Positions 26,648 to 55,874 of a DNA stretch of 64,000 nucleotides are shown here, piece after piece. The stretch is from contig CM055111.1 in the NCBI GenBank assembly GCA_029204225.1, positions 15,068,576 to 15,132,575 of the forward strand. Direction: 5' to 3'. Source of the stretch: Diphasiastrum complanatum (taxonomy: Eukaryota > Streptophyta > Lycopodiopsida > Lycopodiales > Lycopodiaceae). A model generated the notes under the pieces. The model saw nothing but the letters and a program-made list of their open reading frames with translations. It was not told the origin of the DNA and did no database searches. A program made the translations under genes and the position numbers. The stretch's first letter is position 1; each line of letters opens with the position of its first letter.

Positions 26648-26925
26648 GTTCCATTCATAAGTATAAGGCTAGACTTGTAGCAAAAGGATTTTTGCAAGTC
26701 AAAGAAATAGATTATGATGAAACCTTTGCTCTTGTTGCAAAGCTTGTAACCATTAGATTGATCATATGTCTTGCTACTTCTTTCAAATGGGAGTTCTTTC
26801 AACTTGATGTGACAAATAATTTCTTGAATGGATTCTTGGAAGAGAAAATTTAGATGTGCCAACCCGAGGGATTCATCAAACATGGAGAAGAAGACAAAGT
26901 GTGCTTTTTGAAGAAGCACCGCATA
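26648..26925 (+). pseudogene. Copia-3 reverse transcriptase, 5' part
   Basis: Plus strand: SIHKYKARLVAKGF, then IDYDETFALVAK, FQLDVTNNFLNG, a TAG at 26851, and QPEGFIKHGEEDKVCFLKK. This is the first third of a copia RT. It ends within bases of 26925, where gypsy pol takes over without any LTR. The next part of such an RT, starting DGKIIILVLYVDD, lies on the minus strand at 54601, at the other junction with the gypsy element. Confidence 0.85.
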
Positions 26926-29900
26926 CAGAATTACTCATGAATATTTTGTCTAGCAAGATCAATATCTCATTGGGAGAGTTCCTAAAGTTGGTGCCAAAAA
27001 CAAAAGAAGTCTTAACGCAAAAGTTAGCTCAAGAAGAATCAGAAGACCATCAGGAGCCGCTTTTTTGTGCTGGATTTGAAGAATCTAACGATGTACTCCA
27101 TGTTGGAGCCGCTTGGGAAAGTGAACAAAAGAATATCACTCTGTCGATACAATATAGACAATTTTCTGAAGAAGCAGTCGTGATAGATGGCGGTTCAGGA
27201 GTTAACCTGATTTCTACAAAGCTATGTACAAAATGGGGCCTTACAAAGATTAAGCCTGCTACTTTTGCTATTAAACTAGCTAATCAAACGACAGTTCGTC
27301 CACGAGGAATGGTGGAAGATATACCTGTCAGGATTGTAGGAGTACAGTTCGTCATTACTTTCATCGTGATGGACTTACCAGAAGCACCAAATGTCTACCG
27401 AGTTCTCTTAGGACGTCCATGGTTACGAGTTGCACAAGTAATTCATAACTGGGGTACCGGCAAACTCACTTTTGAAAATCGTGAACGTGCAGTTAAAGTT
27501 GATCCTACAACTTGGACTATCAAGCTAGTGGTTGGAAAATTGCAAATCTGTGTGAATCTCAAAGCATTGAATAAAGTGACACGGAAGGATCACGTTCCGT
27601 TGCCTATTATTGAAAGCATTTTGGATCGCCTTGCTGGAACGGAAGCTTATAGTTTCCTGGATGGATTTAGTGGTTACAACCAGGTTAAGATTGCACCTGC
27701 CGATCGCCACAAAATTGCTTTTGCAACAAAATGGGACACCTATGCTTACAAAGTAATGTCATTTGGACTCTGTAATGCACCAAGTTCATTCCAAAGAGTA
27801 ATGCAATTTACCTTTAAAGATTATCTGCAGAAATTCCTTGAAATTTATTGGACGACTTGGGAGTTCATAGTACAGATACAGACCACCTGGATCGATTAGA
27901 GAAAGTCTTTGAAAGATGCCGCAAATATCAGATTTCTCTAAATCCAGAAAAATGCCAGATATGGATTTCTCATGGAGTGGTGCTTGGACATGTGATATCA
28001 AGACATGGTATTACCACCGATTATTCTAAGATCAAAGTTATTGTGGAATTTCCACTGCCAGCAACAATTCGAGGAGTTTATGTGTTTATGGGTCATGCGA
28101 ACTACTATTGAATTTTTATTGTCTTCTTTGCGAATTTAGCACGACCTATATACAAATTAACTACTGTTCCTATTTGGACAGTAGAGGCGTTAGAAGCCTT
28201 TGAAAAATAAAAAAAAGCATTATCTTCAGCACCAATTCTGCGTTCTCCAGATTGGACATTAGAGTTTCATGTTCATACGGATGTCTCAAAATACGCCATT
28301 GGATCATTTTTAATGCAGCCAGGTGACTATAAGAAGGATTATCCTATACGATTTGCAAGCAGACAACTTACAGATCCAAAGAAGAATTATTCAACAACAG
28401 AACGTGAAGCACTAGCCATGATTTTTTCTGTTCGGAAATTTCGTCACTACCTCATGGAAATGCACTTTGCATTTCATACGGATCATCAACCGTTACTTTA
28501 CTTGTTAAATAAGACATGTAATACTGGACGTATTGCAAGATGGTTATTATTATTGACTGAATTTGACTTTCGAATTGTGGTCAGAAAGGGAAAGCAACAT
28601 TATCTAGCCGATCACATTTCGCAAATTGAATCCGCACCAGTTAATACTGAAGTGGATGATGAACTGCCAGATGCTACGTTGTTCTATGTTGAAGCAATAC
28701 CTGAGTGGGCGGCAAATATTGTTGAGTACCTAATGCTAGGACAACCGAATGACTCTTTGACAAAAGTACAGAAAAGACAATTGATTCATAAGGCTCAACC
28801 TTATCAATTAATTGCAAGACAATTGTATTGTCGTGGATCAGATAATATTTTACGAAGATGTGTTTTACCGCATGAAGTACCAGATTTAATCATGTTTTCA
28901 CATGATGGCATGGGTGGAGGACACTTCTCTATAGATATTACTGTTTGCAAACTTTTGCAATTCGGTTGTTGGTGGCCTATGCTTCATAAGGACACAGAAA
29001 ATTTTATTCAGACATGTGATGTCTGCCAGCGAGCACGACGACCTACTCGACAGAATTATGAACCCTTACATCTGGTTTTATCGCAAGCATCGTTTGAAAA
29101 ATGGGAACTTGAATATGTTGGTCCTATTCATCCCGTTGTGCAAGGATCTCAGGCCCGATACATTATTGTCGCAGCTGATTATATGACCAAGTGGGTTGAA
29201 GCCAAAGTTGTCAAAGTGACTGATGTGAAATCTACGGCCAAGTTTCTATATGAAAATATTATAATCAGATTTGGATGTCCGATTGAAATTGTCAGTGATC
29301 GGGGTACACACTTTGTTAATCAAACAATAAATTGTTTATTGGAAGATTTTTTTGTTATACACAGATTTAGTACTCCCTATTATCCCAGAGGGAATGGCCA
29401 AGCTGAATTTTCCAATAAGATTCTCTGCACCATTATGACAAAGACAGTTGAAGCAAGTCGGTCTGATTGGGAACATAAACTGTATGCAACATTATGGGCA
29501 TTCAAAACCGCTTACAAAAATAGTACAAATCAAACACCTTTTCAATTGGTTTATGGTCAAGATGTTGTTATGCCAATTGAATTTTTAATCCCATCTTTAC
29601 GCATAGCAGCAATAGAACGATTAAATGATGATCAGTTTTTACAACTTCGTCATGAAGCGGTGCACAAATTATGTGAAACCCGATTGATGGCAGTTCATGC
29701 CTTAGCAGCAGAGAAAGCCCGCCGCAAGGCATGGCACGATTGTCGATTGCACAAGAAAGATCTGGAAGCAGGAGATCTTGCATTGATGTACAAAACCAAG
29801 CTAATTAAGGGTAAGTTGAAGTTTACTGGTGAAGGCCCGTATAAAATGAAGGAAATCCTGAACTATGACGAAGTAATTCTTGAGCACTTGGATGGAAAAC

Positions 29901-29974
29901 GATTTGATACTCGAATCAATGACAACCGATTACGCAAGTTTTGGCAGCCTGCTCTGCCAGTTCAGCAAGTCTGA
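26926..29974 (+). pseudogene. Gypsy pol: protease, RT, RNase H, integrase
   Basis: This is the polyprotein of a Ty3/gypsy element, in the normal gypsy order. The protease has VVIDGGSGVNLIS near 27178-27216. The RT has ICVNLKALN, FLDGFSGYNQV and MSFGLCNAPSSFQ. A one-base frameshift falls exactly at the catalytic Y-x-D-D (27847). A TGA at 28109 and a TAA at 28208 interrupt the RT/RNase H region, so no active polymerase can be made. RNase H and integrase are then open from 28313 to 29974. The integrase has an HHCC finger (28901-29030) and a complete D, D-35-E triad (codons at 29176, 29297 and 29405). No chromodomain was seen. The left edge is a breakpoint with copia RT; gag and the 5' LTR are found at 54602-57835 on the other strand. 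Confidence 0.9.
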
Positions 29975-30815
29975 TCTCAATATATATTTTTATTTTATTT
30001 GTTTTCAATTTTTTGTTCTCAGTATTTAATTTGCTGACTTTTTTTGGAAAAAGACAGTTAAAAAAAAAAAACAAGAAAAAGAGAAAAAAAATAAAATAAA
30101 AAAAGACTGATGAGCAAAAGTCAAGAAGTCATCAACATAAGGAAAAGGAAGCACAGTATTTTTTTTTTTTTAATGAAAAATGACTTAGAAAACCACTGTT
30201 TGGACAGAATTGGCCAATACAGTATTAGAAACCTGCGCTGAGCTCTCAGACTGTACATCCACCCTTCATTTATTTGAATTGAAGTGGGCGAAGGTTTTGA
30301 CAAGAGAAAAATCAATTTTTGAGTCAGGCGAATGTTCAGTGATATTTCATTTTGAGAATCTTTGTCGAGTATCATAACCTCATTATGAACCTTCGCCGAC
30401 CTGCTAGATGATTTTAAAATGTCAAAATTAGGTTGTCAATAGGTTCAGATTGTGGAAAAAAATATTTATGACAGTACCTGGGCGAAGGACCCTCCTGGGC
30501 GAAGGTTCATCCTTCGCCAGCTCTGGAAAACGTTCGCCTGATAGGTTCAGATCCCTAGAAACCTTCGCCAAGATTTCTATAGCCTATTTTTACAGTATTG
30601 TACATGCTTGCAAATTTTTGTTTAGAACTGATCAGCCCAACTACTATTCAGTGTAATGGACCCACCAAATTCACCTATAAGTTGGTTGAATTTGATTCAT
30701 TCCTCACCTATGCTAGCAAAGCTCTTGCGAATTTTTCTTGTGACCAAAGCCTTCCAGATTTCTTGCATTGCCTTCTGATACACTTTCACGCATTTATAAT
30801 TCCTTTCTGATCATC
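29975..30815 (+). repeat. Gypsy spacer between pol and extra ORF
   Basis: Non-coding. It starts with an A-rich run (30055-30105), then carries at least six forms of GGCGAAGGTTC or its reverse between 30285 and 30572. The same motif recurs in the 5' leader at 56130-56760. It may hold a second promoter or splice signals for the extra ORF; nothing decisive is visible. Confidence 0.6.
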
Positions 30816-33694
30816 ATGTCTTCTACCAATACTTCCCAGTCTCCACGCTATACTATCCATCGTGATGTCCCATCTGCAACGGACATCATGATTCTTCCTA
30901 GCACAAGCATGGTACTCAGTGGATGACCCTTGCGGAACCTCTACTTACTACAATAGGTATTCATGAGAGAGCCTTTTCGGGATGCATCAATATGGATTTC
31001 ATCACTCTTGCCTTTAGTACGTGGAAGGAAGAGAAATCCAAGTTTTATATCACCTTCCAAGGAGCCGCACACAAAGTGCGCATCACTGAGGCCGCACTTG
31101 CAGCTATAGGAATCTCATCTGGTACGCAAGCCTCACCCAATCACAAGCATGCCAAACAGGCCATCAAGCCATACATTGACCCACCAATGATCTGCACTGG
31201 ACTAATGATGGCTACCTTCTAGAAGCCATCACTGAGCCTTCCATCCACACCGCTGCCCAGTTGTTGAATCATTTCCAGATGGTTGGCAACCTCAGGAAAG
31301 ACCGCATCACATCTCAAATCCTTCACAAGATAGTGGAGTCTCACACTAAGTTGGCCAAAGCTCCTCTTGAACCATATAACTGGTTCAAGACTGTTTCTGG
31401 TGAGCTCAAGCGAGTTATTAAGGCCAATACAAAGCAGCAGTTCGCCGCTGGCTCTCTATTGTCCCTCTTAGCCGCTTCTCACTTAGAAAACAGAATCCAT
31501 GGCTTCCACCTGGATTCTGTGCTTTCGGTTTACGAAGAAGCACCGGCTGAGTCATCTCATCAGGCCTCAAATTCTCATAGTTGTCGTCGTCCACGCAGCG
31601 AGATCGTAATTCCTGACTTGCCTTCCACGTCACGACGTCGCACTAGGCATACCTCGTTAGCTGCGCTTCCACCTCTTGATGTTGTTCGCACTGAACTTCC
31701 CATTCCCCTCGCCTCTCATGTTTCCCTCACCTCTACTCCCATACAAGGACAAACTGTGACCATTGGGCCTACCATTCCCATCACATCTGCCTAGGCCGCC
31801 TCACCCCTGCACATCGAAGCAACCTCACCTAACACACAGTTCTTCATGGATATGTTCGATGATTCCGACCCCCTTGGGGCCACCGAAATCTTTGAAATGC
31901 TCCAGAGCCCAGTGCCCTTTGAACTCCAATCCCTTGGAAGAGAATTTGGGCATATCCATGAATCTACGGTTGGTGTCGAAGATGTCAGTCAGCAACCACC
32001 CACACAGGGTAGCCCAGCCACACTTCGAGTCGACACAGCTGTAAAGTCACCAAAGCAATTCGATGCCACAGTGCCTGAAGGGTTTGAAGAAGAGGATACT
32101 TTTGAAGAAGAAGAGACCTTGGCACCTAGTCCATGCCTACCAAGGACAGTACCATCAGGGTCTCCTGTTGCTGCCACCTCCACGACCGTTGATTCTGGTG
32201 ATGCTCTAGGGTTAGTTTTCAGTCTTGGGCAAGTGATCCAGTCTATGCTGGATAAGAAGAAGGAAATGGAGCAGAGGATCTCTGATCTAGGATCCGAAAA
32301 CACTCTGATCAGCTAGAAAATTGTCCAGCTGGATCGAGAGGTGAAGATAGCCAAGCAACATGAAGAAAAGGGCGAAAGTGAAAAGACATTGGCCCAGCAA
32401 CAAGCTGATCGCTTGGAAACCTACATCAGCTCCTTGCAAAACGCCTTGACAATCGCACAGGATCAGGTAGATAAGGCAGTGCAAGAGGCCAAGCAACAAG
32501 TGCAGCTGCTGAAGGGGCAATTACAGATGGCCGAACAAGATCGCACATGGCTTCAAGGTGAATTGGATGCGACCACCCTTGAGCGTGATGCCTATCTGCA
32601 AACACAAATACCCGATCATCTGGTCACACCGACGAAGATTGCATATTTGTTCAAGAAAATGGAAACATACAAAGTGGCCCTTCAGGGATTCCAAGGCCGC
32701 TTCAATAGGTTCAAAGGAGCAGCTTCAACCGAGCTGGCAAAGGCAAAAGAGACCATCAACGCCTATGAAAAAGCCGCCACTCAAGTGTTGGAAGCCGGAC
32801 CACAAATCCTTGTCCCAGTCATGCCGCAATTCTCCCCTTCACGCCAAGAAGCTGTACAAATGGATACAAGGGTTGATTCGAGCATGGACCAGGGAGGAGC
32901 TCCAGATCTAGCAGATCAACCGCCAATCATACAGGCAGTACAAGTGGGTCCATCCTCATCAAGGACAAGCCATTTATTCATAAGGCCCATCAGCGTTGAG
33001 GACTAGATCTAGACCTTCTTAAAGCAACATCCACATGAGTCCTCGCGTGGGGGATGGGTTCTCAAATTTAAGACCTTCGAGATCGAGGTCGGCAAAGAAT
33101 TGGACAAAATACCTGCACTGGGAGAGCAGTCGGCATGGAGAATCACAGTTGCGGGTAGATCCTTATTATGTGCCAATGCCACAAAGACATAAATGGAAAG
33201 AGTTGGGATTGGCTATGGACAAAATCACCATCCATACGCCCAATTGGCCAATCATCCATCAACCTTACAACTGGAACATTTCAGTGGACTTCCACCGGGC
33301 CTTACAAGCATATCAGAGAGAGTATGTCCACTCTCCGGATCCAACGGTGCGACAATCGGCAATGTTTGCAAAAGATCTAACTTTTTTGACATCAGTGGCA
33401 ACCAAATGGGACGATTGCCTTCCTACCCTGGCATTCGATCCAAATAAGCCGATGGCCTCAGAGCAAATCAAAGATCAGCTGTCGATTGTTCGACTGTATT
33501 TTTGTGCGGCTATGATGGGAGGCTCTTGGGAATCCCGCTTCACCTCATGGACAAGTTCCAAGTGGATTGTCGGAGCCCACCGTTGTTTCCTGCCGCATAA
33601 TTTGGATTTCAATACTACACACCTTGATTTTATGGAGAAGGTGCAGTATCATTTAATTAAGATTCGGCGCAAAGCCAATAAAAGTCCCCAATAA
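30816..33694 (+). pseudogene. Gypsy extra ORF (ORF3), copy B, decayed
   Basis: Second copy of the large ORF between integrase and 3' LTR. ATG at 30816. A one-base deletion near 30912 shifts the frame (reading resumes at 30923-31222, then 31261-31794 and 31846-32316). TAG codons occur near 31792, 32314 and 33004, and a deletion of about 53 bases near 33149 (relative to copy A 2530-2583) shifts the frame again. The order matches copy A: N-terminal globular part, Ser/Pro-rich and acidic stretch, long coiled coil (32220-32800), and C-terminal globular part to 33694. Lying on the same strand as pol and directly before the polypurine tract, it belongs to the element. No transmembrane segment, protease or polymerase motif is seen, so an envelope role is not supported by the sequence. 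An RNA-binding, structural or movement function cannot be told apart. Confidence 0.65.
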
Positions 33695-33744
33695 CTGCAT
33701 ATTGCAGGTGTCGTAGGACCGCCACCAGTTTTGGTGGGGGATAC

Positions 33745-34487
33745 TGTTGGAGGGTTTGCGGATCCCAAGCCAATCCTAACCCTAGTTAATAAGTGAGAGG
33801 GATTTGGCACCCTGCGTGTGTAAGTCCAACCCAATGATCACATAGTTATTTGATTAATTAGAAGTCAATAAAAGGACTTTAGTCCTTTTTGCGGGACTTT
33901 TAATGTCGCAGGGCCTAAATGTCAAGTTAGTGAATAAAGTTGGGTTTCCCTCCAATTTTGATGGTTCCCACACTTTTTTAAATCTGAATAAAAAGAGAGG
34001 CAAGACTGGACCAATAGGATTCAGAGGCCAGGGTCCTCCTCTCTACTATAAAAAGAGACCAACTCAAGTTGCTCCTGATGTTCATTTCCTCATTTCAATA
34101 AAGCAGATTGATTCTCTTTAGAAATGGATTGATGAATGTCCTTGCTCTTCCTCTCTTTTCCTCCATTTCTCATGCTTCCTTTGTATTTGCTAATTGTTGG
34201 ATTTGATCATTATTGGGATTGCTATTTCTTATGCTTTTTGTGAGAGAGAAAAGGAGAGAGAGAAGAGTAAGTTTCTATCATTGTTGTGGATTTAGGGTTA
34301 ATGGAAGTAGGGTTAATGGATGTAGTGTTAATGGAAGTTAGTGTTAGATCCTCCATTCATGTTGAAATCTGAACTATACTATCACTCTCATGGGAACAAA
34401 CCTCCGCGTGACAACTAACTTCGTCTCTTTGATGCTAGATTGACTAGATCTTGGATTCAGGTTAGGCAAGGAAAGAAACCCACTACA
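33745..34487 (+). repeat. Gypsy 3' LTR (GyLTR-B)
   Basis: 743 bases, TGTTGGAGGG...CCCACTACA, after a GGTGGGGG polypurine tract. TATA box near 34047 and AATAAA at 34097. It is very close to GyLTR-C (57094-57835, 742 bases): in the most conserved 219-base stretch the translations differ at only 3 of 72 positions. The five bases after it are AACAT, the same five that precede GyLTR-C in element orientation. Confidence 0.92.
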
Positions 34488-34509
34488 AACATTGTCCCCT
34501 AACAGTTTA

Positions 34510-35490
34510 TCTTTATTTTCTAATTCCTATGTCTCTAGCGAAGTCATGGTATGATAAGAGGAGATTGAAAATTGTAATGGGGACGAAATATTTTAGATGA
34601 GTAGAAAGTAATTGATCGTACTGTACATATTTATTAGAATCTACAAAAGTTAATGAAGGAGGGGCGGGAAAAGATACAAAAATATGGCTCAATGTATCAC
34701 TCAGGAAAAACGATTTAGAGAGTTGTGTGGACTGTTCAATAGATTTGGGAGGGGATTTAGAAACTGATTTATGTGTATTGGGAGGAGATTTGGAAGGGGA
34801 TTTAGAAACTGATTTTTGAGGAGATTTGGAAGGGGACTTGGATGGGTACTTGAATGGGGACTTGGGAAAAGATGATGAAGAGGAAGAAGAGGGGGGAGAA
34901 GGGGTTGGTGTTCAAGGAGAAGCTACTAACTTTAGAATAGCCCTCACTTTCTTTGGAGGGGCTAAGGATCTTTTCTTTTTGATAGCAACATGTTGAACGA
35001 TTCCTGGTAGCCTCTTTGGTTCAACCTACTTCATCTTCCTTGCTAAAGTGGTGGTAGCAATAGCTGAAGCAGGATGAGGTGGCCGAAAATTATGGGCAAA
35101 TGTCTCATATGCATCCATCATATGAAATATCAGCACAAAATCTTTGGGACTTATTGTTATCCTTCTTCCATGTATTGCAGCTACAACACAATCTGAAAAG
35201 AGTTTTATTTAAAAATTTTCATAAAATTTGTGCAGTGTTTCAACTGCAGTCACAGTCCATCTTACATCTGCTGAAATATCCTTGGTCACCTACTTGATAC
35301 ATCTTTGCATGTGAGCCTTGGGGATGAGGAGGTTCATCGTTTTTTGAAGCCTCTTAATATCTTTCAGCCATGCTGGATCTCTGGGCCAACCCACTCTCCT
35401 TGGTGCTACTTGTTGCCTTTGAGATGAAGGTGGAGGTGGAGATGGCTATGGAGATGCAACTACACTCACAAGATCTACATTTCAAGCCAA
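34510..35490 (-). pseudogene. Histone H3-like ORF with Lys-Ser-Pro tail
   Basis: A minus-strand frame reads without gaps against the complete histone H3 fold. The alpha-N/alpha-1 region has LKDIKRLQKTMNLLIPK (about 35365-35315). Alpha-2 is about 35260-35205. The loop-2/alpha-3 region has VVAAIHGRRITISPKDF (about 35190-35138). Loop 1 has the same length as in canonical H3, not the longer loop common in CENH3. In-frame stops (one in alpha-1, one in alpha-2, others before and after the fold) show this copy is dead. Ahead of the fold is a Pro/Ser-rich stretch; behind it is a basic stretch and then repeated K-S-P units (34740-34895), reminiscent of SPKK-type DNA-binding tails. Real H3 ends shortly after alpha-3, so this long tail is unusual. 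The frame starts about 50-120 bases downstream of a copia-like PBS and LTR, and GyLTR-B sits directly at its 3' end. Confidence 0.6.
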
Positions 35491-35531
35491 ATTTTTCATC
35501 ACTCTTGATGCATGGATTATTATCTTAGGTA

Positions 35532-35544
35532 GGTTCTGGTACCA
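35532..35544 (-). other. Degenerate primer binding site
   Basis: The minus strand reads TGGTACCAGAACC, two changes from the initiator tRNA-Met site, immediately after an LTR end (CTTCACA). It suggests that the H3-like ORF is interior sequence of an LTR element. Confidence 0.65.
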
Positions 35545-36478
35545 TGTGAAGTTTTCACACGTGTGGGGACAGTCTCCTAAGATGTGGGTGATTGCACAAA
35601 GATCAAGGACTTGGTGGATTTCAAGATCTATCGTCAAAAATCTAAGGCAAGCGCACATAGAATATGCATAAATCATTCACCAAAGTACATACACATGTAA
35701 AGGCAACTCATGATAAAAAAAAGTAAGTATAGAATACAAGGACTAGCTCTTGAGTAGAGAGAGAAAGCAACAAAATCTCTAAGTGTAAAATCTCACACAA
35801 TCTCCAAAAAACTAGGTGTAGAATGGTTCCCTCTCACATACTAGTAGTAACTCGAGGTAGGGAGAGTGAAATATGATTGGACCCCTTCTTTTCCTCATCC
35901 TAATTTGATTAGCTTAGTGACATAAGGGCCCTCAAATTTGATTGGACCAATTTCATGGATCTCTCTCTTTTGATTAGTCACATGATCTCAAGACAACTCA
36001 TAAGAGATTGCCACTCACCCTCTCTCATCATGACAAATGTAGAAAGCCTAAGCTAGCTCGAGCCACAACACGTTCCAAATTTGTGTATAAGGACTAAAAA
36101 ATTCTAGACACCCCTAAACTCAACATAGATTGATTTTACCAAATTTTCACAAGAATCACCTCCTACTTTGATTGGACCACTTACATGCCACATCTTACAT
36201 TGATTGGACCATTTTGGGCATCCTTCACTATGATTGGTCCATATTGACAAATAAGATTATGAGGTGCAATGTCACTAGCCCTCTACAATCAAGCCAAGTG
36301 TAAGTAACCTACACTACCATGAGCTAATCCAAGTCTAAATTTGGCCTAATCATATAATTACAAGTGTACAATGAGTGGTTTTGATAGAGGACCCCTAAAC
36401 CTCAACTTTAAGGCCTATTGACTATTCAAGCTCAAAATAAATGAACTAAAGTGATTATGCCTACCGTCCACATGTAAG

Positions 36479-36551
<73 letters not shown>

Positions 36552-36803: not shown

Positions 36804-36814
36804 ACATACCAAGC

Positions 36815-36933
36815 ACAATATCCATAACATCTTGGAGTATCAAAATAGACTCCATTCTGAACTTCCAAATTGAGTAATTAGAAGTGTTTAGTCTTTCACT
36901 GGCTTCTAGAAGGTATCCTCCCTGAGATGCCAT
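36815..36933 (-). pseudogene. Copia-7 gag start, truncated
   Basis: The minus strand from ATG at 36933 reads GGYLLEASERLNTSNYSIWK, then FRMESILILQDV, the first 38 or so residues of a UBN2-type gag. It is cut near 36815, apparently by insertion of the LTR6 element. Confidence 0.75.
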
Positions 36934-39525: not shown

Positions 39526-39531
39526 TTTTGA

Positions 39532-39590: not shown

Positions 39591-39657
39591 GCGGGCAAGG
39601 AGGGGATTGAGGGGAGGAATCGCTGCTGTGGCATTGTCAGCAAAAGTGTGAGCGACT

Positions 39658-40545
39658 ATGCCTACGCTTCCAGGCATTTCTTCTGCAGCAGCATCTGTTG
39701 CTGTGCAGTTGCCATCTCAGGCAGAAGCAGAACCCCAACACTGTCCAACAGTTTACTCGCTCTCGCGCCCATTTCTCAGGCAAGATGCTTCCCTTTCCCT
39801 TGGGCTGCAGACATGGAGGGGACTCAGACCCATTGGGAAGAAGCCTTCCCAGCTTTTGAGACAAACAACAGCAGCAACACATTTTGTAGCTCGCAATAAC
39901 GACAGGGGACGATCCGAACAATTAGGGTTACGGGCTTTGTTCACAGGCATTGTGGAAGAGCTGGGAAATGTGCGAGAGGTGCGATTGACGGAAGATGGCG
40001 GCTATGAGATGAGGATAGACGCAAACATTGTTATTGAGGATGTGAAGCTTGGGGATAGCATCTCCGTGAACGGCACATGCCTCACTGTCACGCATTTTGA
40101 TTCCAAGGGTTTCACCGTCGGTTTGTCTCCAGAAACCCTTCGAAGAACTTCCTTAGGGGAGGCATTTGCTGGATCTCCGGTCAATCTGGAGCGGTCGCTG
40201 CAGCCAGTGTCCCGGATGGGGGGCCATTTCGTGCAGGGACATGTGGACGGCACAGGAACTATTGTATCCTTCAATCCAGAAGGGGATTCATTATGGGTTA
40301 AGATAAAAACATCGGCAGATCTACTGAGATACATTGTGCCGAAAGGCTACATATCTGTGGACGGGACCAGTTTGACAGTTGTTGGGGTTTATGATGAGGA
40401 GAGCAGTTTTACATTTATGCTGGTGGCTTACACACAGCAAAAGATTGTGATTCCAGTGAAGAAGCTTGGGAGCAAAGTCAACCTTGAAGTGGACATTGTG
40501 GGGAAGTATGTCGAGCGGCTACTCAAGGGTTATAGCAAAGCATAG
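39658..40545 (+). CDS. Riboflavin synthase, plastid-type
   Basis: This intact 295-residue protein converts two molecules of 6,7-dimethyl-8-ribityllumazine into riboflavin and a pyrimidinedione (EC 2.5.1.9), the last step of vitamin B2 synthesis. In plants this occurs in plastids. Residues 1 to about 93 are rich in Ser, Ala, Arg and Gln with few acids, as in a chloroplast transit peptide. Two lumazine-binding domains follow. Domain 1 starts FTGIVEE (95-101) with SVNGTCLTV at 136-144. Domain 2 has GHFVQGHVDGTG (189-200), SVDGTSLTV (233-241) and the C-terminal NLEVDIVGKYVERL (275-288). This is the internal duplication expected of the family, and the length is normal for plants. The ATG at 39658 is the only one giving a full transit peptide. 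There is no intron and no stop. A LINE end lies 180 bases upstream. This is the best-supported host gene here. Confidence 0.97.
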   Translation: MPTLPGISSAAASVAVQLPSQAEAEPQHCPTVYSLSRPFLRQDASLSLGLQTWRGLRPIGKKPSQLLRQTTAATHFVARNNDRGRSEQLGLRALFTGIVEELGNVREVRLTEDGGYEMRIDANIVIEDVKLGDSISVNGTCLTVTHFDSKGFTVGLSPETLRRTSLGEAFAGSPVNLERSLQPVSRMGGHFVQGHVDGTGTIVSFNPEGDSLWVKIKTSADLLRYIVPKGYISVDGTSLTVVGVYDEESSFTFMLVAYTQQKIVIPVKKLGSKVNLEVDIVGKYVERLLKGYSKA

Positions 40546-44400: not shown

Positions 44401-45693
44401 CATATATTTGAAGACACCTTTGCACCAGTTGCGAATATGGTAACAATTTGAATACTCATCTCTCTTGCATGTTTTCACAAATGGAGTATGTTCCAGCTTG
44501 ATGTTTCTAATGCATTTCTCAATGGTTACCTTGAGGAGGAGATTTATATGGAGCAGCCTCCAGGTTTTGTGAAGGAAGGTGATGAATCAAAAGTTTGTCT
44601 TTTGTTCAAAAGTCTGTATGAACTGAAACAGGCACCAAGGTCTTGGTATGCAAGGCTCAATTTCTATCTCATATCACTTGGATTTTGTCTAAGTGAATAT
44701 GACCCTTCTCTATATTATAAGTTTGTAGATAACTTTGTAATTATTCTTCTCATCTATGTAGATGATATCATTCTTTGTGGAAACAATGAGAAGTTAGTTG
44801 AAGAAACTAAGCATGCACTTGGTACTGAGTTTAAGATGCATGACTTAGGAGTTCTTCACTATATTCTAGGCCTTGAAATAGATTTTTGGAAAGGTCATAT
44901 ATTTATATGCCAAAGTAGATATGCACTTTCCATGCTCAGAAAATTCCATATGGAAAACTGTAAAGGCATAGATACACCTATGGAGCACACTGTAAAAGTT
45001 CCTATTAAAGATGATGAAAAATCCTTTGAGGACATCACTCTTTATAGGAGTCTTATTGGCTCACTTATTTGGTTAACAGTGACTAGGCCTGATCTAAGCT
45101 TTTGTGTTCATAAGCTAAGTCAACACATGTAGGATCCAAAGTTATATCATTGGAAGTTGGCTAAAAGAGTCTTGAGGTACATATACAAAGGAGAAGATCT
45201 GACTTTGATTGCCTTTTCAGATTCAAATTTTGCAGGAGACAGGTTGGATAGGAAATCCACAAGTGATTAGACTATATTTCTTGGAGGAAACTTGGTTTCT
45301 TGGCTATCAAAGAAGTAGGCAATTATTTCCTTATCATCCTATGAAGTTGAGTACAAATCTCTTACAACCACAACAAAGGAGGTTTTATGGATCAAAAGGC
45401 TACTTTTGGAGCTAAAGTGTTATGCATATGAAGATTTACCAATTATCAAGAATGATAACATTTCTACTCAGGCTCTTGCAAATAATCCAGTCTTTTATGC
45501 AAGGAGCAAGCATATTGAAGTGGCTCATTATTTTTTAAGAGAAAAAGTGATTGGGAGAGAGATCTCATTGGAGCATGTTTCATCTTCAGATTGTGTTGCA
45601 GATCTTCTCACCAAACCTCTACTCAAAAATGTGTTTATGAAGATGAGGTCTAACCTTGGCCTAATTTCAAAGTCTATGTTGATGGGAACATAA
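44401..45693 (+). pseudogene. Copia RT and RNase H (3' part of pol)
   Basis: Plus strand: FQLDVSNAFLNGYLEEEIY, the LKQAPRSWYARL segment and IYVDDIILCGNN (the Y-x-D-D catalytic motif, intact) in 44488-45132. A TAG at 45130, where Gln is usual, and further stops interrupt the RNase H, which continues with FSDSNFAGDRLDRKST, SWLSKK, ARSKHIEVAHYFLRE and ADLLTKPL to 45693. The LTR3 start follows 15 bases later. Integrase is absent; before 44440 the sequence is only partly recognisable as RT. Confidence 0.88.
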
Positions 45694-45707: not shown

Positions 45708-46730
45708 TGTGAAGATTATTAAAATATTATCTTCATATCTCGAGTTTGGGGCCATGTCCATGGTGATTTCCACTAAAATTCATGTTGTATATAAAAGGAG
45801 TGTGAATTGAGCACATATCCTTCTAGTGTAGCTCGGATTTGAGTTAGATAGGTTCAATTATGATGACATGCAAATGTTTAGATAGCATGCAAAGTCTTAC
45901 TGTATGCATGCAAGCCACATGCAACATGCAAAGTAGTTTCAGTGATCTACACATGTCTAGGCAGTTTTATGAGTTGACATGCAGTACATGCAACATACAT
46001 GCATGCAGTTACACATGTGGATCTCTGGTCGGTAAATTAGTTCAATTAAGTGGACTTTCCATGCAACTCCACTGTAGGAATTCGAGTCTCTCTCATGTAG
46101 GAAAAGCTGGGCATGTTTTGCCACATTGTGAATATTGAGATTTTGGTGTTTTGGACTCATTCTCTCTCTATCCGAGTTTAATATGCTTGATTTTCTCTCT
46201 CTACTCGAGAGCAGCCTCTTTTTCCCATACTGAACACTTAAAATTATTTCTGACATTCATTTCTCATAGTGAAGAGTTAGATTTTTTCAACTGATGTATG
46301 CCATTGTGCTCTTGCCTTAGATTTTTCAAGCATACTATTCTTTGATCAATCTTGTGCAATCACAACACCTCAGTAAGATCCTGTAGGGTGTGTGGTGAAG
46401 TTCACACGTGCTAAAAACTTCACATGCCATATTGTGAATATTGAGATTTTGGTGTTTTAGACTCATTCTCTCTCTATCTGAGTTTTCTATGCTTGATTTT
46501 CTCTCTCTACTCGAGAGCAGCCTCTTTTTCCCATACTGAACACTTAGAATTATTTCTGACATTCATTTCTCATAGTGAAGAGTTAGATTTTTTCATTAGA
46601 TGTATGCCATTGTGCTCTTGTCATAGATTTTTCAAGTATATTGTACTTTGATCAATCTTTTGCAATCACAACACCTCAGTAAGATCCTGTAGGGTGTGTG
46701 GTGAAGTTCACACATGCTAAAAACTTCACA
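45708..46730 (+). repeat. Copia LTR3 with internal tandem duplication
   Basis: Starts TGTGAAGATTATTAAAATA after an AAGGAAGAG purine tract and ends AAAACTTCACA. It follows RNase H (3' LTR position) yet is followed at once by a PBS (5' LTR position). A 306-base tandem duplication covers 46125-46430 and 46431-46736. Copy 1 carries a CACACGTG core at 46403; the equivalent in copy 2 is CACACATG. Confidence 0.85.
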
Positions 46731-46742
46731 TGGTATCAAAGC
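46731..46742 (+). other. Primer binding site after LTR3
   Basis: TGGTATCAAAGC directly after the CACA end of LTR3; an initiator tRNA-Met-type PBS on the plus strand. Confidence 0.85.
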
Positions 46743-47844
46743 TTCATGCTTTGAAGAGGTGAGGGTGCATACATCAGATTTTCAGTGCTTTTGCTTGCAG
46801 GAACTTGGATTTGGGAGAGAGATTCAAACTCGCTGAGAGACAAGATATTTGTGGAACATAAGTAGATCAAAACGAGCTTGATTTGCTCCAACAGAGCCCT
46901 GTACGAACAGAGAGCTCACACGTGTGAAATCATCCCTCATTAATTGAGTGCTACTTTTCTAGATTTGATCCAAATTTGATGTTCTATAGCTTGTTGGATA
47001 GGTATTGAAGAGTAGAATGTGTTGTCCACGTTTCTAAATCAATTTGATTTGTTCTGGAAAAGTTTTAGGCAATCAGAGAGTCTGAGAGGGTACTCAACTC
47101 GTGGGATATGCCAAAGTGAGCACACATCAGTTCTTTTCATCATTTTCATCAATTTCCATTAAACTGATCGTTGTCTTAGATAAGTTTGGATTGGAAAATT
47201 TATAGTCCACTTTTTGACTCGTGCATAATTTGGCCTTGCTTTCAAAGTTGAAAGAGCAAGAGGGATTAAAAAACATTACCTACATTAAGAAAGAGAAACA
47301 TATCCTCCCATATCCAAAAAAAGAAAAGAGAGTGAGCATTACCATTTCTAAACTGGAATTTGAAATTGGCTAGCTTTCAAAGTTGAAAGAACGAAGAATC
47401 TAAGAAAATGCAAAAATTAGCTACATTGAGAAAGAGAGAGAGACATCCCCTGAGTTCCATAGGGAAAGGAGAGAGAGTGCCCCCAACTCATCCCAGAATT
47501 ATAGTTTTTGCTAGATTAGCCTCACAATTGAGAAGGAATGCTATGAATTATGTAGGTACCAACATGTATTGATATACATGGATTTGAAAATTTTGGTATT
47601 TTGACATCATGGAGATTGCAATATGAAAATTTGATATATTATAAATAGTTTGATAAAGACTTTGTACATACTTTTACCATATGGGTATGATAAAGACCCA
47701 TATGGATACTTTGCACATTGTAGATATGCACTAGACACCTGATAGATATAAACATATACCTAAACTATTGCCAAACTAAAAATCCTAACCTCCAATCACC
47801 ACATTATTTATTTATTTACTTATTTAATTGAAAATGGCAGATTC
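46743..47844 (+). repeat. Copia leader downstream of LTR3
   Basis: Non-coding leader sequence with CACACGTGTG at 46917-46926. Around 47240-47480 two diverged tandem units of about 130 bases share TTCAAAGTTGAAAGA and a GAGAAAGAGA run. No gag start was found before LTR1-C interrupts it. Confidence 0.5.
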
Positions 47845-48260
47845 TGTGAAAGATTTCAACTAGTTTAGTCAAATTTGCTACATTTGTTTATTTGGCAATT
47901 GAGGCCAATTTCATATTAGACTTAGAGTTTGGCTTTTCAGAGTTATATTAGTCTAAAAGCATTTGAATAAACACTTTTGAAAAGTTTACACGAGTTTCTG
48001 GTAGATTCAATTTGCGTAGTAGAGACATTGAATCTAGTCACAAAAATAGTAGGGTTTTTCATTATGGAAAGAAACCAAAGCTTGAAATTAGGTCTGGACC
48101 TGCTATGGGAAGAGAAAATTTCTCTATCTCTTATCTCATTTCATGTCTATACATCGTTCTCTTTGGGTTATCTATCCATTGGTGCACTATATTGGTGATA
48201 TCTTGCAATTTTGTGTGTAGAATGCTCATAAAATGTTATATTCGGATCCACATGTGTGAG
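47845..48260 (+). repeat. Copia LTR1-C, partial
   Basis: Starts TGTGAAAGATTTCAACTAG and follows LTR1 to TAGAATGCTCAT and CGGATCCACA, then diverges near 48260. The CT repeat of the family is almost absent here. Confidence 0.7.
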
Positions 48261-48411
48261 GCCGCTCATGATGTTTATTGATGTTTACACGTGTTGATCT
48301 TGCTAAATAGTTAAGCATCTACATCTAGATCTTGATCTAATCAATAGAACTTGTTAGATCACTTGATTTGGCAATCAACACCTCTTGAAGATTGATTAGT
48401 ACAATCAATCA

Positions 48412-48759
48412 TTGTCCGAAAATCAAAAAATTCACAAATCTACATCAACATCGCAAGTTGGAGAGGAGGCTATGTTCATCAAGGGCAAATTCAAGGGCAA
48501 AAAGCAAGATCAAGGGGAGGCTTCTTCAAATGACAAAAAGAAAGATAGGTCAAAGCTCAAGTGCTTCTATTGTGGCATGAAAGGACACTTTGCAAGTGAG
48601 TGCTACAAGAAGAAGATGTCGGAGAAATTGGGGAGAGGAGGATTGATCAACCCCTTCAATTCTCTAGGTGCGTGGACTACTGGTGACTTAGTAGGCGAAC
48701 ATAAGAACATAATAATTTTAAAGCTTCTAATGCATGGTGGTAGTAGAAGCGGTGAGTAG
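48412..48759 (+). pseudogene. Copia gag C-terminal part with zinc knuckle
   Basis: Plus strand: a Lys-rich stretch, then CFYCGMKGHFASECYKKK, the single CCHC knuckle of copia gag. The upstream gag domain is missing; about 150 bases of undefined sequence (48262-48411) separate it from LTR1-C. After about 48640 the frame no longer resembles gag. The same knuckle, nearly base for base, recurs at 51612-51660. Confidence 0.7.
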
Positions 48760-49520
48760 ATAACTAGACAAATCAATTAGATAGTCAGACAGAACATGGA
48801 AAAGCATGGCAGTATTGACACAAATCTGAACGCAGAACCAAACAGAGCTGTAATCAGATCAAGTATAACAAAATATACAAGTCAATAATGTAGGTAAGCA
48901 CAAAACAATAGTGGATGTAACTATTTGCTTCACAAAGCTAATCACAATCTATGAGGGTTATGAACCTATTGCTAACAATCTGTTTGAAAGAAAGAATCGA
49001 TGTGTGAAAGCATCTACAATGTCTATCTCACATGTTACAAATCATGCTTCGTTCTCTATATATGTGATGAATCCTTGAAAGGTATTCAATATATATACAA
49101 ATGTTACATATGTGCAGATGAAGAATATACAAAAGTGATTGTGCTATCTGTAGGAGATCGTGGGTGGCTGTCGTCATTGTCAAATCTGATTGCACAGTGC
49201 ATAGAACGAGCGTGACGAGGCCGCAACATCGGGCTTCACTAGAATTGACGCTAGTGAAAATGCAAAAATTGCGACACCCTTCGGCCTTCAGCCTTGTCCT
49301 TACCTAAAGGCAACTTTTGCCCTTATAACAACAAGTGTCGCATTTTTCGCCTGTCTAATTTTACATGTAAAAATGCAGTGTCGCATTTTTCACATTTTTT
49401 GCCTATTCAAGTTTGCTTGTATTTATGCAGACTATGCGACAACATGAGTAGAAATGCAGTAGCATTGAATGGAGGCAGATTAACATAGGATTTAGGAGAA
49501 TAGAGAAAATAAATCCAACA
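48760..49520 (-). repeat. Copia LTR5-A (3' LTR of Copia-5)
   Basis: The minus strand starts TGTTGGATTTATTTTCTC at 49520, directly after the polypurine tract AAGAGGGGG. The far edge is approximate. It matches LTR5-B at 23.66-24.18 kb. Confidence 0.7.
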
Positions 49521-49598
49521 CCCCCTCTTAATCTGGATCCCTGAATGCCTTGATCTTCAGACTAAGCAATGCACAAAATTTGTTATGCGCATTAACAC

Positions 49599-51607
49599 TT
49601 AATGCTTTGTAAATATATTTGCAACCATGTCCTGTGTTCTACAATACGTTAAGCTTACCTCTTTGTTGAGAACCTTGCCCCTAATATAGTGACATCGAAT
49701 CTCAATGTGCTTACTCCTAGAGTGAAATCTAGGGTTGGTTGATAAGACAATAGCACTCTGATTATGACATAATATGATAGTAGGGCTGCACTGATTCAAA
49801 CTAATGTCTGACAGTAAATTTCTCAACCAAAATGCTCCTTTAATAGATTGAGAAGCAACAATGTATTCTGCTTCTATAGATGAAAGAGCGATTGAGGTTT
49901 GCTTACGACTGTTCCATGAGATAGGACCATCATTGAAGAAGAATGTAAATCCAGATGTGGACTTATGATTGTCTACATCTCCTCCCCAGCTTGCATCAGA
50001 ATATCCACTGAGTTGATGAAGAATGTCGTTGTTGACTTCTCCATAGCAGATGCACTGGTCCATGGTAGCTCAAATATACCTCATGACTCTTATGAGAGAC
50101 TTCCAGTGGGTAATGCCAATATTAGCCATAAATTGGCTGAGTGAGCAAACTACAAAAGAGATGTCAGGTCTTGTACAAACCATTGTGTACATGAGAGATC
50201 CAAGTATCAATCGATAAGGATACTCTCTCATCTGCTCCTCTTCCTGCTTGGTCTGAGGACATTGGTCCCTTGACAAACGTAGGCCTGGATCCATCGGTGA
50301 GTGAGCTAACTTACAATTCATCATATTATATCTGTCAAGAACATTGTGAAGATAACTTTGTTGAGTAATATAAATTAGTCTTCTCGCTCTGTCACGGTGG
50401 ATTTGAATGCCAAGAAAAAAGTGAGCTTCACCTAGATCAGTCATGTCAAACTCAAAAAACAATATCTGTTTAGCATCCTTAACCAAATTGGTATTGGTGC
50501 TGAAAAATGATAATGAAGGATTGTTGCACTGACTTGGAATAGATGTTGCAATCATCAGTGCTTGGTTGAAAACCTTGTTCGATGAAGAATGTGTTGATCC
50601 TCTGAAACCAAGCTCTGGCAGATTGTTTCAAGCCATAAAGTGCCTTATGGAGCTTACATACATGATTCTTCATACCTTCCAGAATATATCCTTCGGGCTG
50701 GATCATGTAGCTATCTTCTTCTATAACTTTATCCAGATAAGCTATTTGCACATCAAGTTGATGCACTTCAAGGTCGGCTGCTACAACATATGATAGGAGG
50801 GCTCAGATCGATAAATGCTTGACTACTGGACTGCAAGTCTCACTATAGTCAATATTGGAAATCTGAATAAATCTTCATGCTACCAGTCTTGCCTTCCTTC
50901 TATCAATCGTTCCATTGACATTGTACTTGATCTTAAAGATCCGTTTGCAATCGATGATATTGTAGCCACCCCCAAGAAGAGCTTCGCCTAATGACTATGT
51001 TTGGTTCTTGATCAGAGAGAAATATTATTTGTCCATGGCTTCTCTGCAGAGTTCAGAGTCTGGTTGGCTAAGTGCCTCTTCGACCATTGTCGGTTCTTGT
51101 ATCAAAAGATAGGTAGACTCAGGTTGGATGGTTTTGAGACCTTGAAAGTCAAATTTTTTCCTCGTCTCTTTCAGGATCTGCGCTTAGGCGATGCATCCGA
51201 ACACTTGTAGGTTCTTCACAGAAGGCTTAGAGCTTGTCCACATCTCATGGAGTGTTCTGCCTGAGAGGGCCTTGGTTGAACATCTGTTCTAGACATAAGC
51301 TACAGTGGAGATAGCCTTGGCCTAGAAGCTCTTGGGCAGTGATGCATGTGCCAGCATACTTTTAGTTGATTCAACTAGGGTATAGTTCTTTCTCTCGGCC
51401 AAGCCATTTGATTGAGGAGAATAAGGAGTGATAAATTGTTGCTCAATGTCTTGGCTTTGGCAGTACTCCTTAAATTCGGTAGAGATGTACTCTCCACCGT
51501 TGTCAGACTCAGGGCTTTGGTCATTCTCCCAGTCTCTTTTTCTGCACGCTCCTTGAAGATTTTGAAGCAACTAAAAGCTTCTGATTTCTTCTTGATAAAA
51601 TACACCA
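49599..51607 (-). pseudogene. Copia-5 pol: integrase to RNase H
   Basis: This is a nearly continuous copia pol read leftward. Integrase: SDNGGEYISTEFKEYC and PQSNGLAERKN with the catalytic Glu region (51570-51400). Linker: SVKNLQVFGC near 51240 and later an acidic part. RT first half 50766-50479 (HQLDVQIAYL, YGLKQSARAWFQR); the Y-x-D-D segment is disrupted by a deletion near 50490. RT second half 50555-50070 (DLGEAHFFLGIQIHRD, SLMYTMVCTRPDISF). RNase H 50063-49599 (GYSDASWGGDVDNHKST, ARSKHIE-type motif, VANIFTKH). Several frame changes and stops. LTR5-A follows. The upstream end breaks at 51607 against plus-strand gag, so its own gag and 5' LTR are absent. Confidence 0.85.
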
Positions 51608-51611
51608 TAGA

Positions 51612-52081
51612 GCTTCTATTGTGGCATCAAATGACACTTTGCAAGTGAGTGCTACAAGAAGGTGATGGAGCTATATCATGGATGTCGAAGAAACAAGCCA
51701 CTATCTCATTGTCATCTAGTGAGGCTGTGTACAAAGCCCTTACTCATTGCACAAAAGAGATGGTATGGATCAAGAGGATGATCAAGTCGGATATTCACTT
51801 GCTAGATTTTTCAGAGTGACCAATCATCTTTTGTGACAACCTATCAACCCAAAAGTTGGCAAGCAATCCTATATTTCATGCTAGGAGCAAGCATATTGAG
51901 ATGGCATATCACTTTGTGAGGGAGCAAGTCATGGCAAAGGAGGTGGAGCTTCAACATGTCTCCTCAAGAGAGTGTGGCGCTGATATCTTCACCACAACAT
52001 TGGTAAAAGGCTTGTTCATAAAGCATATGACCTCACTTGGAGTGTTTTCAATGTCTATGCTAAAGCTAGTTGAAGAGGGAG
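51612..52081 (+). pseudogene. Gag zinc knuckle fused to copia RNase H
   Basis: 51612-51660 encodes FYCGIK, a TGA in place of Gly, then HFASECYKK, the gag knuckle also seen at 48553. It is fused directly to RNase H: ISWMSKKQATISLSSSEA (51670-51730), ARSKHIEMAYHFVREQV and HVSSREC, ending LKLVEEGV. A GAGGGAG purine tract and LTR1-D follow. Everything between the knuckle and the RNase H core (protease, integrase, RT) is deleted, so this is a deletion derivative of a Copia-1-type element. Confidence 0.8.
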
Positions 52082-52375
52082 TGTGAGAAATTGTCAACTA
52101 GTTTAGTCATATTTGCTACATTTGTTTATTTGGCAATTGAGGCCAATTTTATATTAGACTTAGAGTTTTACTTTTCAAAGTTATATTAGTCTAAAATAAT
52201 TTGAATAAACACTTTTGGAAAGTTTAGTACACAAGTTTTTGGTAGATTCGATCTGAGTAGTAGAGACATTGAATCTAGTCACAAAAATAGTAAGATTTTT
52301 CATTATAGAGGGAAACCAAAGTTTGAAATTAGGTTTGGACCTGCTATGAAAGGATGTAACTCATGGAAAGAGAAG

Positions 52376-52458
<83 letters not shown>

Positions 52459-52738
52459 TCATTTCATGCTTATACATGTTTCTCTTTCGGTCATCTATCC
52501 ATTGGTGCACTATATTGGTGATATCTTGGAATTTTGTGCGTAGAATGCTCATTAAATGCTATATTCGGATCCACACATGTGAAATACAGTAGCTTATTAA
52601 TTTTGTATGGAAATCAACTTCATTTCCTGTTTTGATTGATGTTTGATCAAGATCTATTCGAGTTTGCATCCCATTCATAGAGTAGATATTGATTTTTCTA
52701 TATTGGCAAGGTTGGTGATTTGTTGACTTCTACTTTGG
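52082..52738 (+). repeat. Copia LTR1-D, truncated 3' LTR
   Basis: Starts TGTGAGAAATTGTCAACTAG after a purine tract. It follows LTR1-A closely, with the (CT)n tract at 52377-52455, and stops near 52738 before its normal end. Confidence 0.8.
52377..52455. repeat. (CT)n microsatellite
   Basis: About 79 bases of perfect CT repeat inside LTR1-D, at the same LTR position as in LTR1-A. Confidence 0.95.
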
Positions 52739-52870
52739 TCTATTCTCTCTCTACTCAAGAGCAACCAATTTTTCTCTCTCTACTTGAGAGCAAGGTGTTT
52801 GGTTGGGTCTCTCGTAATGAAAATTATGTAGTTTTTCATGTGGATGTAAGAAACTTGCTTGTCTTTGGAC

Positions 52871-53670
52871 GATCATGTGAAAATACAGAAAATGAGGACC
52901 AAGAATGGATCCAAATCAGATCCACAAGAGTGATTGGGTGTTAGATTAGATTGATCTACCAATCTACACAAGATTAGATCAATTCTACATCAACAAATCT
53001 AACAAGAACAATTAATTATAATTAAAACTATGACTTGCTGGTTTCACACGTGTGAAAACCTGTCAGAGTACGACTACCGACAGAGAATGAAGTACACAGA
53101 TTAGAATCCAATAGAAGCATAAAATCACAAGACAAATAGTGAAATTACTCAAGAAATGCTCCAAAACAAAGATTTCACTTGCGTGTTGATTATGGCCAAA
53201 TGAGGCTCTATATATACACAAGAGCTGCTAGTACTGAGTTGATTTGGCACGTGTGAGAGTGCCTAGTCATCATAGGATCCACCAATAATCATCAATATGG
53301 CACATAGTCCAAGATTCCTAACTTATAGCCACCTCCCCCTTGATTTGAGGCAATTTTCCTAATTTATAGGGACTTGCACAAATATCTACTACAAGTGGAA
53401 TCTCACCTAATACTAATGTTTTCACACGTGTGAGTAGGTTTACACACATGTGAGATCACTCCTACCCATGTGAAATAACTTTTTTTTACCAATAATATGA
53501 TGCCAAGTGGCATTTAGCTAGAAAACTAGATTTTGGCCATTTTAGCCACTAGATCTCAAATAAAATGATATGTAAAACCTACATGACTATTCTAAAGGAC
53601 AAGTGCATTTTCAAATTCTAGCTTGGTAAATCTAACATACATATATCTACAACTCCAAGTGCTAATATTA
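52871..53670 (-). repeat. Copia LTR4-B-like sequence
   Basis: Resembles LTR4-A (shared ATGCCAAGTGGCAT and downstream segments, plus several CACACGTGTG motifs at 53045 and 53423 and CACGTGTGAG at 53248). Edges are approximate. The expected PBS after CACA near 52870 is not intact. Confidence 0.55.
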
Positions 53671-53674
53671 ACTT

Positions 53675-53870
53675 TACACTAGACCAACTGTCTCAGTGAG
53701 CATGTGATGTGTCACATTTGACTGGTCAACACTTGGATTGTGGGCTGCTTGATTTCACAATAAATGCATGGAATTTCTCATACACTGGACCAAGTGTCTC
53801 AGTGAGCATGTGATGTGTCACGTTTGACCGGTCAACCCTTGATTTCACAATAAATGCATGGAATATCTTC
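53675..53870. repeat. Two-unit tandem duplication
   Basis: 53675-53780 (106 bases) and 53781-53870 (90 bases) are near copies, the second lacking about 16 bases. The last 30 bases of each unit are RNase H coding sequence of the adjacent copia (the segment around IYC), so the duplication spans the broken end of that gene. Confidence 0.85.
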
Positions 53871-53871
53871 A

Positions 53872-54601
53872 GCCTGGATCACATTAAGCTCCTCCAAAGT
53901 CTTCTTAGCCATAGGATCTCCTTTGTTGTTATTGTCATAGCTTTGTACTCGGATTCTGCTGATGAAAGAGAGATGGTATCTTGTTTTTTGGAAAGCCAAG
54001 ATATAACTCCTCCACATAAGAATGTAGCAAAGGCACTTGTGGATCTTCTATCCACTTTGTCACCTACAAAATATGAGTCCGAGTATGATCTCAGACAAAT
54101 ATTAGTCCCTTGATAAACAATGCCAAAGTTTCTTGTAGCCAAGATATATCTTAACACTCTTTTGGCACTTTTCCAATGACATATTAGTGGACTTTGCATG
54201 TATTGACTCAATTTGCCAACACAAAAGCTAAGATCTGGTCTAGTGATGTTCAAGTAGATCAAATAACCAATAAGCTTTCTATAGGTAGTTATGTCCTCAA
54301 AGGATGCTTCATCACTTTTCTTGAAAACTTTTACACTTAGTTTCAAGGGAGTTTCAACTGCTTTACAATCTTTCATGCAAAACTTTTCTAAGATGGATCT
54401 AGCATACTTACATTGACATATGAAAGTAAAATCATTACTTCTAGTGACTCCTATTCCAAGTATAACTTTTAGAAGTCCTAAATCTACCATCTTAAATTAA
54501 CTAGACGAGAAAATTTTTACATCTCTAATGCCATCAAGATCATTTCCTGTGAGAATTATATCATCAACATATAAAACCAAAATAATGATCTTCCCATCAC
54601 T
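53872..54601 (-). pseudogene. Copia-3 RT (3' part) and RNase H
   Basis: The minus strand from 54601 reads DGKIIILVLYVDDIILTGND (catalytic Y-x-D-D intact), a TAA near 54510, then DLGLLKVILGIGV, LNITRPDLSFCVGKL, SYSDSYFVGDKVDRRST and SWLSKKQDTISLSSAESEYKA. It ends near 53872 just before the IYCDN motif. It begins exactly where the copia fragment at 26648-26925 ends, allowing for about 120 lost bases, and abuts gypsy gag at 54602 without an LTR. Confidence 0.88.
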
Positions 54602-55874
54602 ACGCAACTCTGTGATTTTCTCCACATGAAAAGCATCCAAGTGGTGCTCTGGCCCAATTTCTCGAGGCTTGTTGTTGAGTGGCAGCATAAATGGCATACT
54701 GTTATGAAGATCCACCTTCTTGATCATTACCGTAGCTCCATTGCTCAGCACTTCCGTAAGGTTTTGGTTCCATCAAATTGGTAGGAGGAGCAGAGTGTTT
54801 TGGTGGGGCAAGCAAAGCTAGACATTCCGGGTATCCAAGAGTAGAGTGTCGTAGTCTTGCTGCTGGATTGCCTCCATACTGTGGATCTCGATATCCCATC
54901 TGGGCATACCATTGTTGAATTATCCGAGGGTTGAAATTGCAAAAGGCAGTCTCATGGTCAGGTGAATTACACAAATGGCAAATACTGATTTCCATTCGTT
55001 TTTTCAATTGAGGACACTCGTTCACTGTGTGATTTTCTGTACAAATAGAACACCAGACATTTTCCCTGGTAGGAAAAGTCTTTGCAAACTTCTCAAGTTC
55101 CTTGTTCGCTTCTCCATGGAAAATTTCTAATGCTTTGATCTTCTCATCAAATTGCAACTGCAACTTTTCCATCTGTTTCTGCTGGGTCTTCCCAAGTTTC
55201 TCGAACTCATTGAGCATCATTTCTGCAATAGCATTGGCATTCGTTGATGCAATAATGATGGATGTCGTAGTAATCTGTCCTACTGTATAAGGCAACATAC
55301 TGACATTCGGCTCATCATCTGAATCTTCATCCTCCTCCCGAATTGCATCGTCCATCGCATTTTGCAAAAGTGCATACTCATTATGGCGTTTCATCTCACG
55401 TCTGATGTGTTTAGGTAGACCTGACAAAAACCACATAACCATGGCATTGTCATTAATCAGCTCAGGCTCACATTCAGATATAAGACGTTTCACCCTTTCA
55501 ATGTAATCTCAAACCATTTCCCACTTTCCCATTTTAATTTTACTTAAAAGTAGGAAAGGGTCTTTCATAAACTTCCGCGGTTTGAACTGTGTGATAAGGG
55601 CTCGTTTAACAACCTCCCAATCTGTACGTTCAGTTTCATCTTGGTTATAGTACCAATCTTGTGCTACGCTTGTTAAGGCCATAGGAAACAACTTAAATCT
55701 ATCTTGAGGATAAATCTCACCATAGACCTCACAGGATTCAGCATAGATCTGAAGAAATCTAACTGGATCTTTTAATCCATTATATTTGGGTAGATCCAAT
55801 CGGGGTGCTCTTCTAACAATAATTGGATTGATTTCCTGTGGAGCACCTCCAGGAGCAGCTCCAGGGGCAGCCAT
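54602..55874 (-). pseudogene. Gypsy gag (5' half of split element)
   Basis: The ATG at 55874 starts an Ala/Pro/Gly-rich leader and then a capsid-type domain (LDLPKYNGLKDPVRFLQIY and FPMALTSVAQDWYYN). A TGA near 55510 sits where Arg is expected; the frame then stays open to 54702. A TAA follows there, with in-frame sequence continuing to 54602. Two unusual knuckles are complete (CSICTENHTVNEC and CHLCNSPDHETAFC), and a third begins (CFSCGENH) and is cut at the breakpoint. Protease should follow; it is found at 26926 on the plus strand. A short coiled coil lies near 55250-55080. Confidence 0.88.

Follow-up and report, generated by a model that had tools for sequence, protein, structure and literature searches.

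Part of a Triticeae review (PMC13393857) names paired breaks followed by end joining, and also recombination between inverted repeats, as sources of inversions in repeat-rich plant genomes. Large inversions in maize are reported in PMC2773423. A literature search for papers that use both "LTR retrotransposon" (LTR, long terminal repeat) and "interrupted by an inversion" found none. Here, a 64-kb stretch of Diphasiastrum complanatum (assembly GCA_029204225.1, contig CM055111.1, positions 15,068,576–15,132,575), called the window throughout, was analyzed. It has 38% G+C content and no N. A single inversion of ~27.7 kb between points near 26922 and 54602 is very probably the best explanation for a gypsy and a copia retrotransposon that are each split in two. 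The first-pass annotation had proposed this inversion, and the complementary halves, the LTR pair, and the AACAT flanks support it.

The gypsy and copia elements belong to different superfamilies and are broken at the same two places. Because their complementary, non-overlapping, and opposed halves share two cut sites, one inversion would account for both split elements. At both junctions, partners are swapped and orientations are opposed, as in a small chromosomal inversion. Reversing the block re-pairs the gypsy target-site duplication and the LTR pair, which were checked independently. Junctions and element parts are located as follows.

26919–26928, no strand: left junction of the inversion (copia to gypsy), position good to ~10 bp
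54595–54605, no strand: right junction of the inversion (copia to gypsy), position good to ~10 bp from frames
26925–27896, plus strand: gypsy protease, then the first part of reverse transcriptase (RT), RVT_1 E 1.5e-11
28211–29971, plus strand: gypsy RNase H and integrase (RT_RNaseH, RT_RNaseH_2, Integrase_H2C2, and rve, all above cut-off)
31180–33691, plus strand: gypsy, long open frames lying past integrase and before the 3′ LTR
33745–34487, plus strand: gypsy 3′ LTR, 743 bp, preceded by polypurine-like GGTGGGGGATAC and followed by AACAT
34488–34492, plus strand: target-site duplication AACAT beside the 3′ LTR
54603–55889, minus strand: gypsy gag, carrying two in-frame stops and interrupted within the third of its zinc knuckles
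57094–57835, minus strand: gypsy 5′ LTR, 742 bp, preceded by AACAT and followed by primer-binding-like TGGCGCCGTTGTCGGGGA
57836–57840, minus strand: target-site duplication AACAT beside the 5′ LTR
26656–26919, plus strand: copia RT 5′ part, with one in-frame stop; lies beyond the inverted block
53879–54601, minus strand: copia RT 3′ part with RNase H, within the inverted block
52939–53637, minus strand: probable copia 3′ LTR, 699 bp, TGTTAGA...TCTAACA, bounds inferred from the terminal inverted repeat

Frames read across both junctions agree with the switches between copia and gypsy first noticed near 26925 and 54602. At the left junction, on the plus strand, copia RT is readable to ~26919 (...KVCFLKKH), running through CFLKK; from ~26925 onward, the open frame (PHTELLMNILSSKINIS...) is gypsy. 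Similarity of this gypsy frame to proteins P0141 and P0084 begins at its residue 2. At the right junction, on the minus strand, gypsy gag stops at CFSCGENHRVA (~54603) and copia then resumes at SDGKIIILVLYVDD. Gag is indeed cut in its third zinc knuckle, with the refinement that knuckles 1 and 3 are spaced CX2CX3H and the second alone fits CX2CX4HX4C.

Each gypsy half retains its proper end, with a primer-binding-like site on the 5′ half and a polypurine-like tract on the 3′ half. The minus strand reads 5′ LTR, then TTTTGGCGCCGTTGTCGGGGAG, then gag; the plus strand reads pol, then GGTGGGGGATAC, then 3′ LTR. Both LTRs open with TGTTGGAGGG and close with CCCACTACA. In an alignment to which the 5′ LTR was entered with one extra base, 25 of 741 aligned bases differ (14 transitions and 11 transversions), with 4 further gap columns. 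Identity is 96.6% (716/741), the Kimura two-parameter distance (K2P) is 0.035, and blastn gives 96.1% over 744 columns. The first-pass lengths of 742 and 743 bases hold, and "nearly identical" is more precisely about 96–97%. A third long LTR of the family (near 3182–3935) is 90.8% and 91.4% identical to the pair; among these three copies, the two LTRs are each other's closest match. The outer flanks carry the reported 5-bp duplication, AACAT on both sides in element orientation. The chance of a 5-mer flank match is 0.0013 from composition, and an empirical count over 3721 offset pairs nearby finds 13 matches; the two estimates together give about 0.1–0.4% of comparisons. The matching duplication and LTR closeness indicate that the gypsy halves come from one insertion.

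A motif family was also said to be common to the two sides, and the counts bear this out. GGCGAAGGTTC has 10 sites in the window (≤1 mismatch, both strands) against 0.4 expected; 30 first-order Markov control sequences contained 0.43 sites on average and never more than 3. All sites lie within the two gypsy parts, five in 30287–30569 and five in 56130–56755, and both clusters are outside the recognized gag and pol frames. A CCTTCGCC-type motif in these two intervals repeats on both strands of the gypsy element. Heat-shock-element-like spacing (GAAnnTTC) was considered for the motif and dropped, with one three-box site in the whole window.

The Ty3/gypsy element has an LTR pair, a 5-bp duplication, gag, protease, RT, RNase H, and integrase in gypsy order. 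Matches to RT, RNase H, and integrase are above Pfam cut-offs, and those to gag (Retrotrans_gag, E 0.009) and protease (RVP_2, E 0.0033; gag-asp_proteas, E 0.0044) are below them. No gag homologue was found among 426 candidates (E ≤ 0.001), and gag pieces had no match at E ≤ 1 to proteins from the copia RT/RNase H and gypsy protease/RT searches. The gypsy protease/RT search returned 78 proteins, none named Diphasiastrum and many carrying no name. Two frames tested after the integrase, 31180–31791 and 32317–33003, have no Pfam matches. The gypsy 3′ part, with its post-integrase frames, occurs a second time at 87–3935, where it is 82.7% identical to 30691–34488; the one frame tested in this copy, 1972–2784, has no Pfam match.

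The copia RT parts are collinear on Pfam RVT_2, without overlap. The 5′ part at 26656–26853 matches RVT_2 positions 33–96 (E 6.9e-17, 62.3 bits; Pfam cut-off 31.6). The 21 residues past its stop have no Pfam match alone and would extend coverage to ~position 118. The 3′ part matches positions 160–185 (E 2.8e-4, 21.0 bits) and 192–242 (E 3.7e-6, 27.2 bits). The gap was sized on six references: two other copia frames in the window and the four proteins, among homologues from the copia and gypsy searches, that match 26656–26853 at E ≤ 1. The number of residues between the RT parts is 37 in window frame 44452–45129, 38 in P0008, 36 in P0018, and 37 in P0073 (a weak alignment). Four of the six references thus give 36–38 codons (108–114 bp), close to the "about 120 bases" of RT first estimated as lost, and the remaining two give no usable gap.

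Compared with window copia 44452–45129, the two copia parts are identical at 32/53 and 45/97 residues, values that are compatible with a single copia element and do not prove it. The copia halves are linked solely by the complementarity of their domains and by a comparable degree of relatedness. Positions 53882–54496 are 88% identical to D. complanatum protein P0001, with 94% of the query covered, and 7 of the 10 best matches of the RT/RNase H piece are from this lycopod. The Ty1/copia features seen are the RVT_2 reverse transcriptase and a single LTR (3′), recognized by its terminal motif. No copia 5′ LTR is seen; the remnant is truncated at ~26645 by another LTR in reverse orientation, the start of which is deduced from a comparison with 47846. 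Adjoining both outer ends of the copia remnant (25856–26645 and 52933–52080) is a repeat whose start resembles that of a copia LTR (TGTGA...). Its copies are inverted between the two sides and 67% identical over 986 columns, and they would become direct repeats once the inversion is undone.

Several points weigh against a single inversion. It is read from a single assembled sequence, and LTR closeness is judged among the window's three long copies alone. Both 3′ copia pieces are individually below the 31.6-bit RVT_2 cut-off. For the copia gap, P0041 gives −8, an 8-residue overlap, and seems to be without the stretch; window frame 50482–50802 gives −43, a meaningless value with just 10 residues of the 3′ part aligned. 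With no 5′ LTR seen in the remnant, neither an LTR pair nor a duplication links the copia halves. Gypsy gag found no homologue by which the loss between gag and protease could be sized.

The alternative that survives best, an unlikely one, is an assembly artefact in which the block was turned around during assembly and the chromosome itself keeps the collinear order. The evidence is one assembly, and repeats lie near both junctions, namely the inverted copia-LTR-like repeat (~25856–26645 and 52933–52080). However, the junctions are ~275 bp and 1.7 kb outside these repeat copies, which are 80–81% identical in just their better parts. The window has no N gap and the sequence is continuous through both junctions. 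In addition, ~110 bp of copia are gone, which a simple contig flip would not remove.

It is more improbable still that two same-family gypsy copies and a pair of copia copies were separately truncated and are complementary by chance. The gypsy family does occur elsewhere in the window (87–3935), several kinds of copia remnants are common there, and no LTR ties the copia halves. Chance truncation nevertheless requires several coincidences: the same 5-bp flank, an LTR pair more alike than either member is to the third copy, element ends that complement each other, and partners that match at both junctions.

Among the 15 matches listed from a comparison of 26400–27500 with 54000–55200, the longest exact one spans 10 bp (E 1.0); another of 13 bp (E 3.9) contains a mismatch. 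No inverted duplication near the junctions (within ~0.5–0.6 kb of either) is among those 15 matches. Within ~40 bp of the junctions, there are no common words of ≥8 bp, and four 7-bp words are common to both. Ectopic recombination between the inverted repeats that flank both sides (non-allelic homologous recombination) was rejected as having next to no probability, as the junctions lie outside those repeats, the breakpoints are not within long inverted homology, and no listed exact match between the junction regions exceeds 10 bp. A staggered-break inversion was likewise rejected, with no inverted duplication of breakpoint sequence among the 15 matches listed.

The single inversion leads its alternatives by a wide margin and is an ordinary event for a repeat-rich plant genome. 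The inversion would have followed an earlier insertion of the gypsy element, in minus-strand orientation, close to a copia remnant. One double-strand break would have fallen inside copia RT, with a loss of ~110 bp, and the other between the gypsy gag zinc knuckles and protease. The ends would then have rejoined with the segment reversed, most plausibly through end joining, either non-homologous or microhomology-mediated. Because neither long homology nor an inverted duplication is common to the junction regions, this two-break route is the likeliest. Both breaks presumably occurred simultaneously, and the inner segment rather than the flanks probably turned.

The inverted block carries a riboflavin synthase gene, as the first-pass annotation stated.

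39652–40542, plus strand: riboflavin synthase open reading frame, uninterrupted, inside the inverted block

This frame has two Lum_binding stretches (E 6.8e-47) and matches NCBIfam equivalog NF006767 along its full length (E 1.6e-63). It is uncut and lies ~12.7 kb and 14 kb from the two junctions.

Other repeats and fragments were seen in the window. Another copia-like element at 47845–52933 has LTR stretches (47845–48107 and 52082–52348) that are 90% identical and a gag zinc knuckle at 48400–48756 (plus strand). Its frame 51820–52083 (plus strand) is RNase H-like by eye, without a Pfam match. This element is apparently interrupted by minus-strand copia pieces at 49602–51570, in which two of three frames tested have RVT_2 and rve. 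A SET-domain fragment at 7300–7623 (minus strand, E 3.3e-5) lies downstream of a same-strand copia gag at 8298–9254. A tandem duplication of ~308 bp with 94.5% identity is found at 46119–46732.

Split elements with a matching target-site duplication are strong evidence of inversion without an outgroup. The LTR K2P of 0.035 gives a maximum age of 1.3, 2.5, or 4.3 million years at 1.3e-8, 7e-9, or 4e-9 substitutions per site per year, rates that are assumed and not clubmoss-measured. A tentative and rather doubtful reading is that the inversion is young, may still be polymorphic, and carries riboflavin synthase in a clubmoss lineage whose gene order has reportedly been stable for hundreds of millions of years. 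If true, local reversals happen in that lineage and are datable through split retrotransposons. Homosporous lycophytes are said, reportedly by Li et al. in 2024, to have extraordinary gene collinearity, and given this a tally of such inversion scars among them would be useful. One 27.7-kb case alone alters nothing and is ordinary plant genome turnover.

The gypsy element resembles Athila/Tat-like elements in its primer-binding-like TGGCGCCGTTG and its extra frames between integrase and 3′ LTR. Athila/Tat-like is a name for gypsy elements with open frames after the integrase, and the likeness is a candidate one. The element differs in that no homologue of its gag was found at E ≤ 0.001.

Compared with the plant inversions in the part of the Triticeae review cited above (PMC13393857), this case is alike in its reversed segment, breakpoints in repeats, and probable end joining without long homology. 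The table of that review also includes inversions that break within inverted repeats and lose very little sequence. Unlike those entries, the junctions here are outside inverted repeats and ~110 bp are missing; set against that part of the review, nothing is different in kind. In this case, both junctions are legible in one sequence, as elements of two superfamilies are cut.

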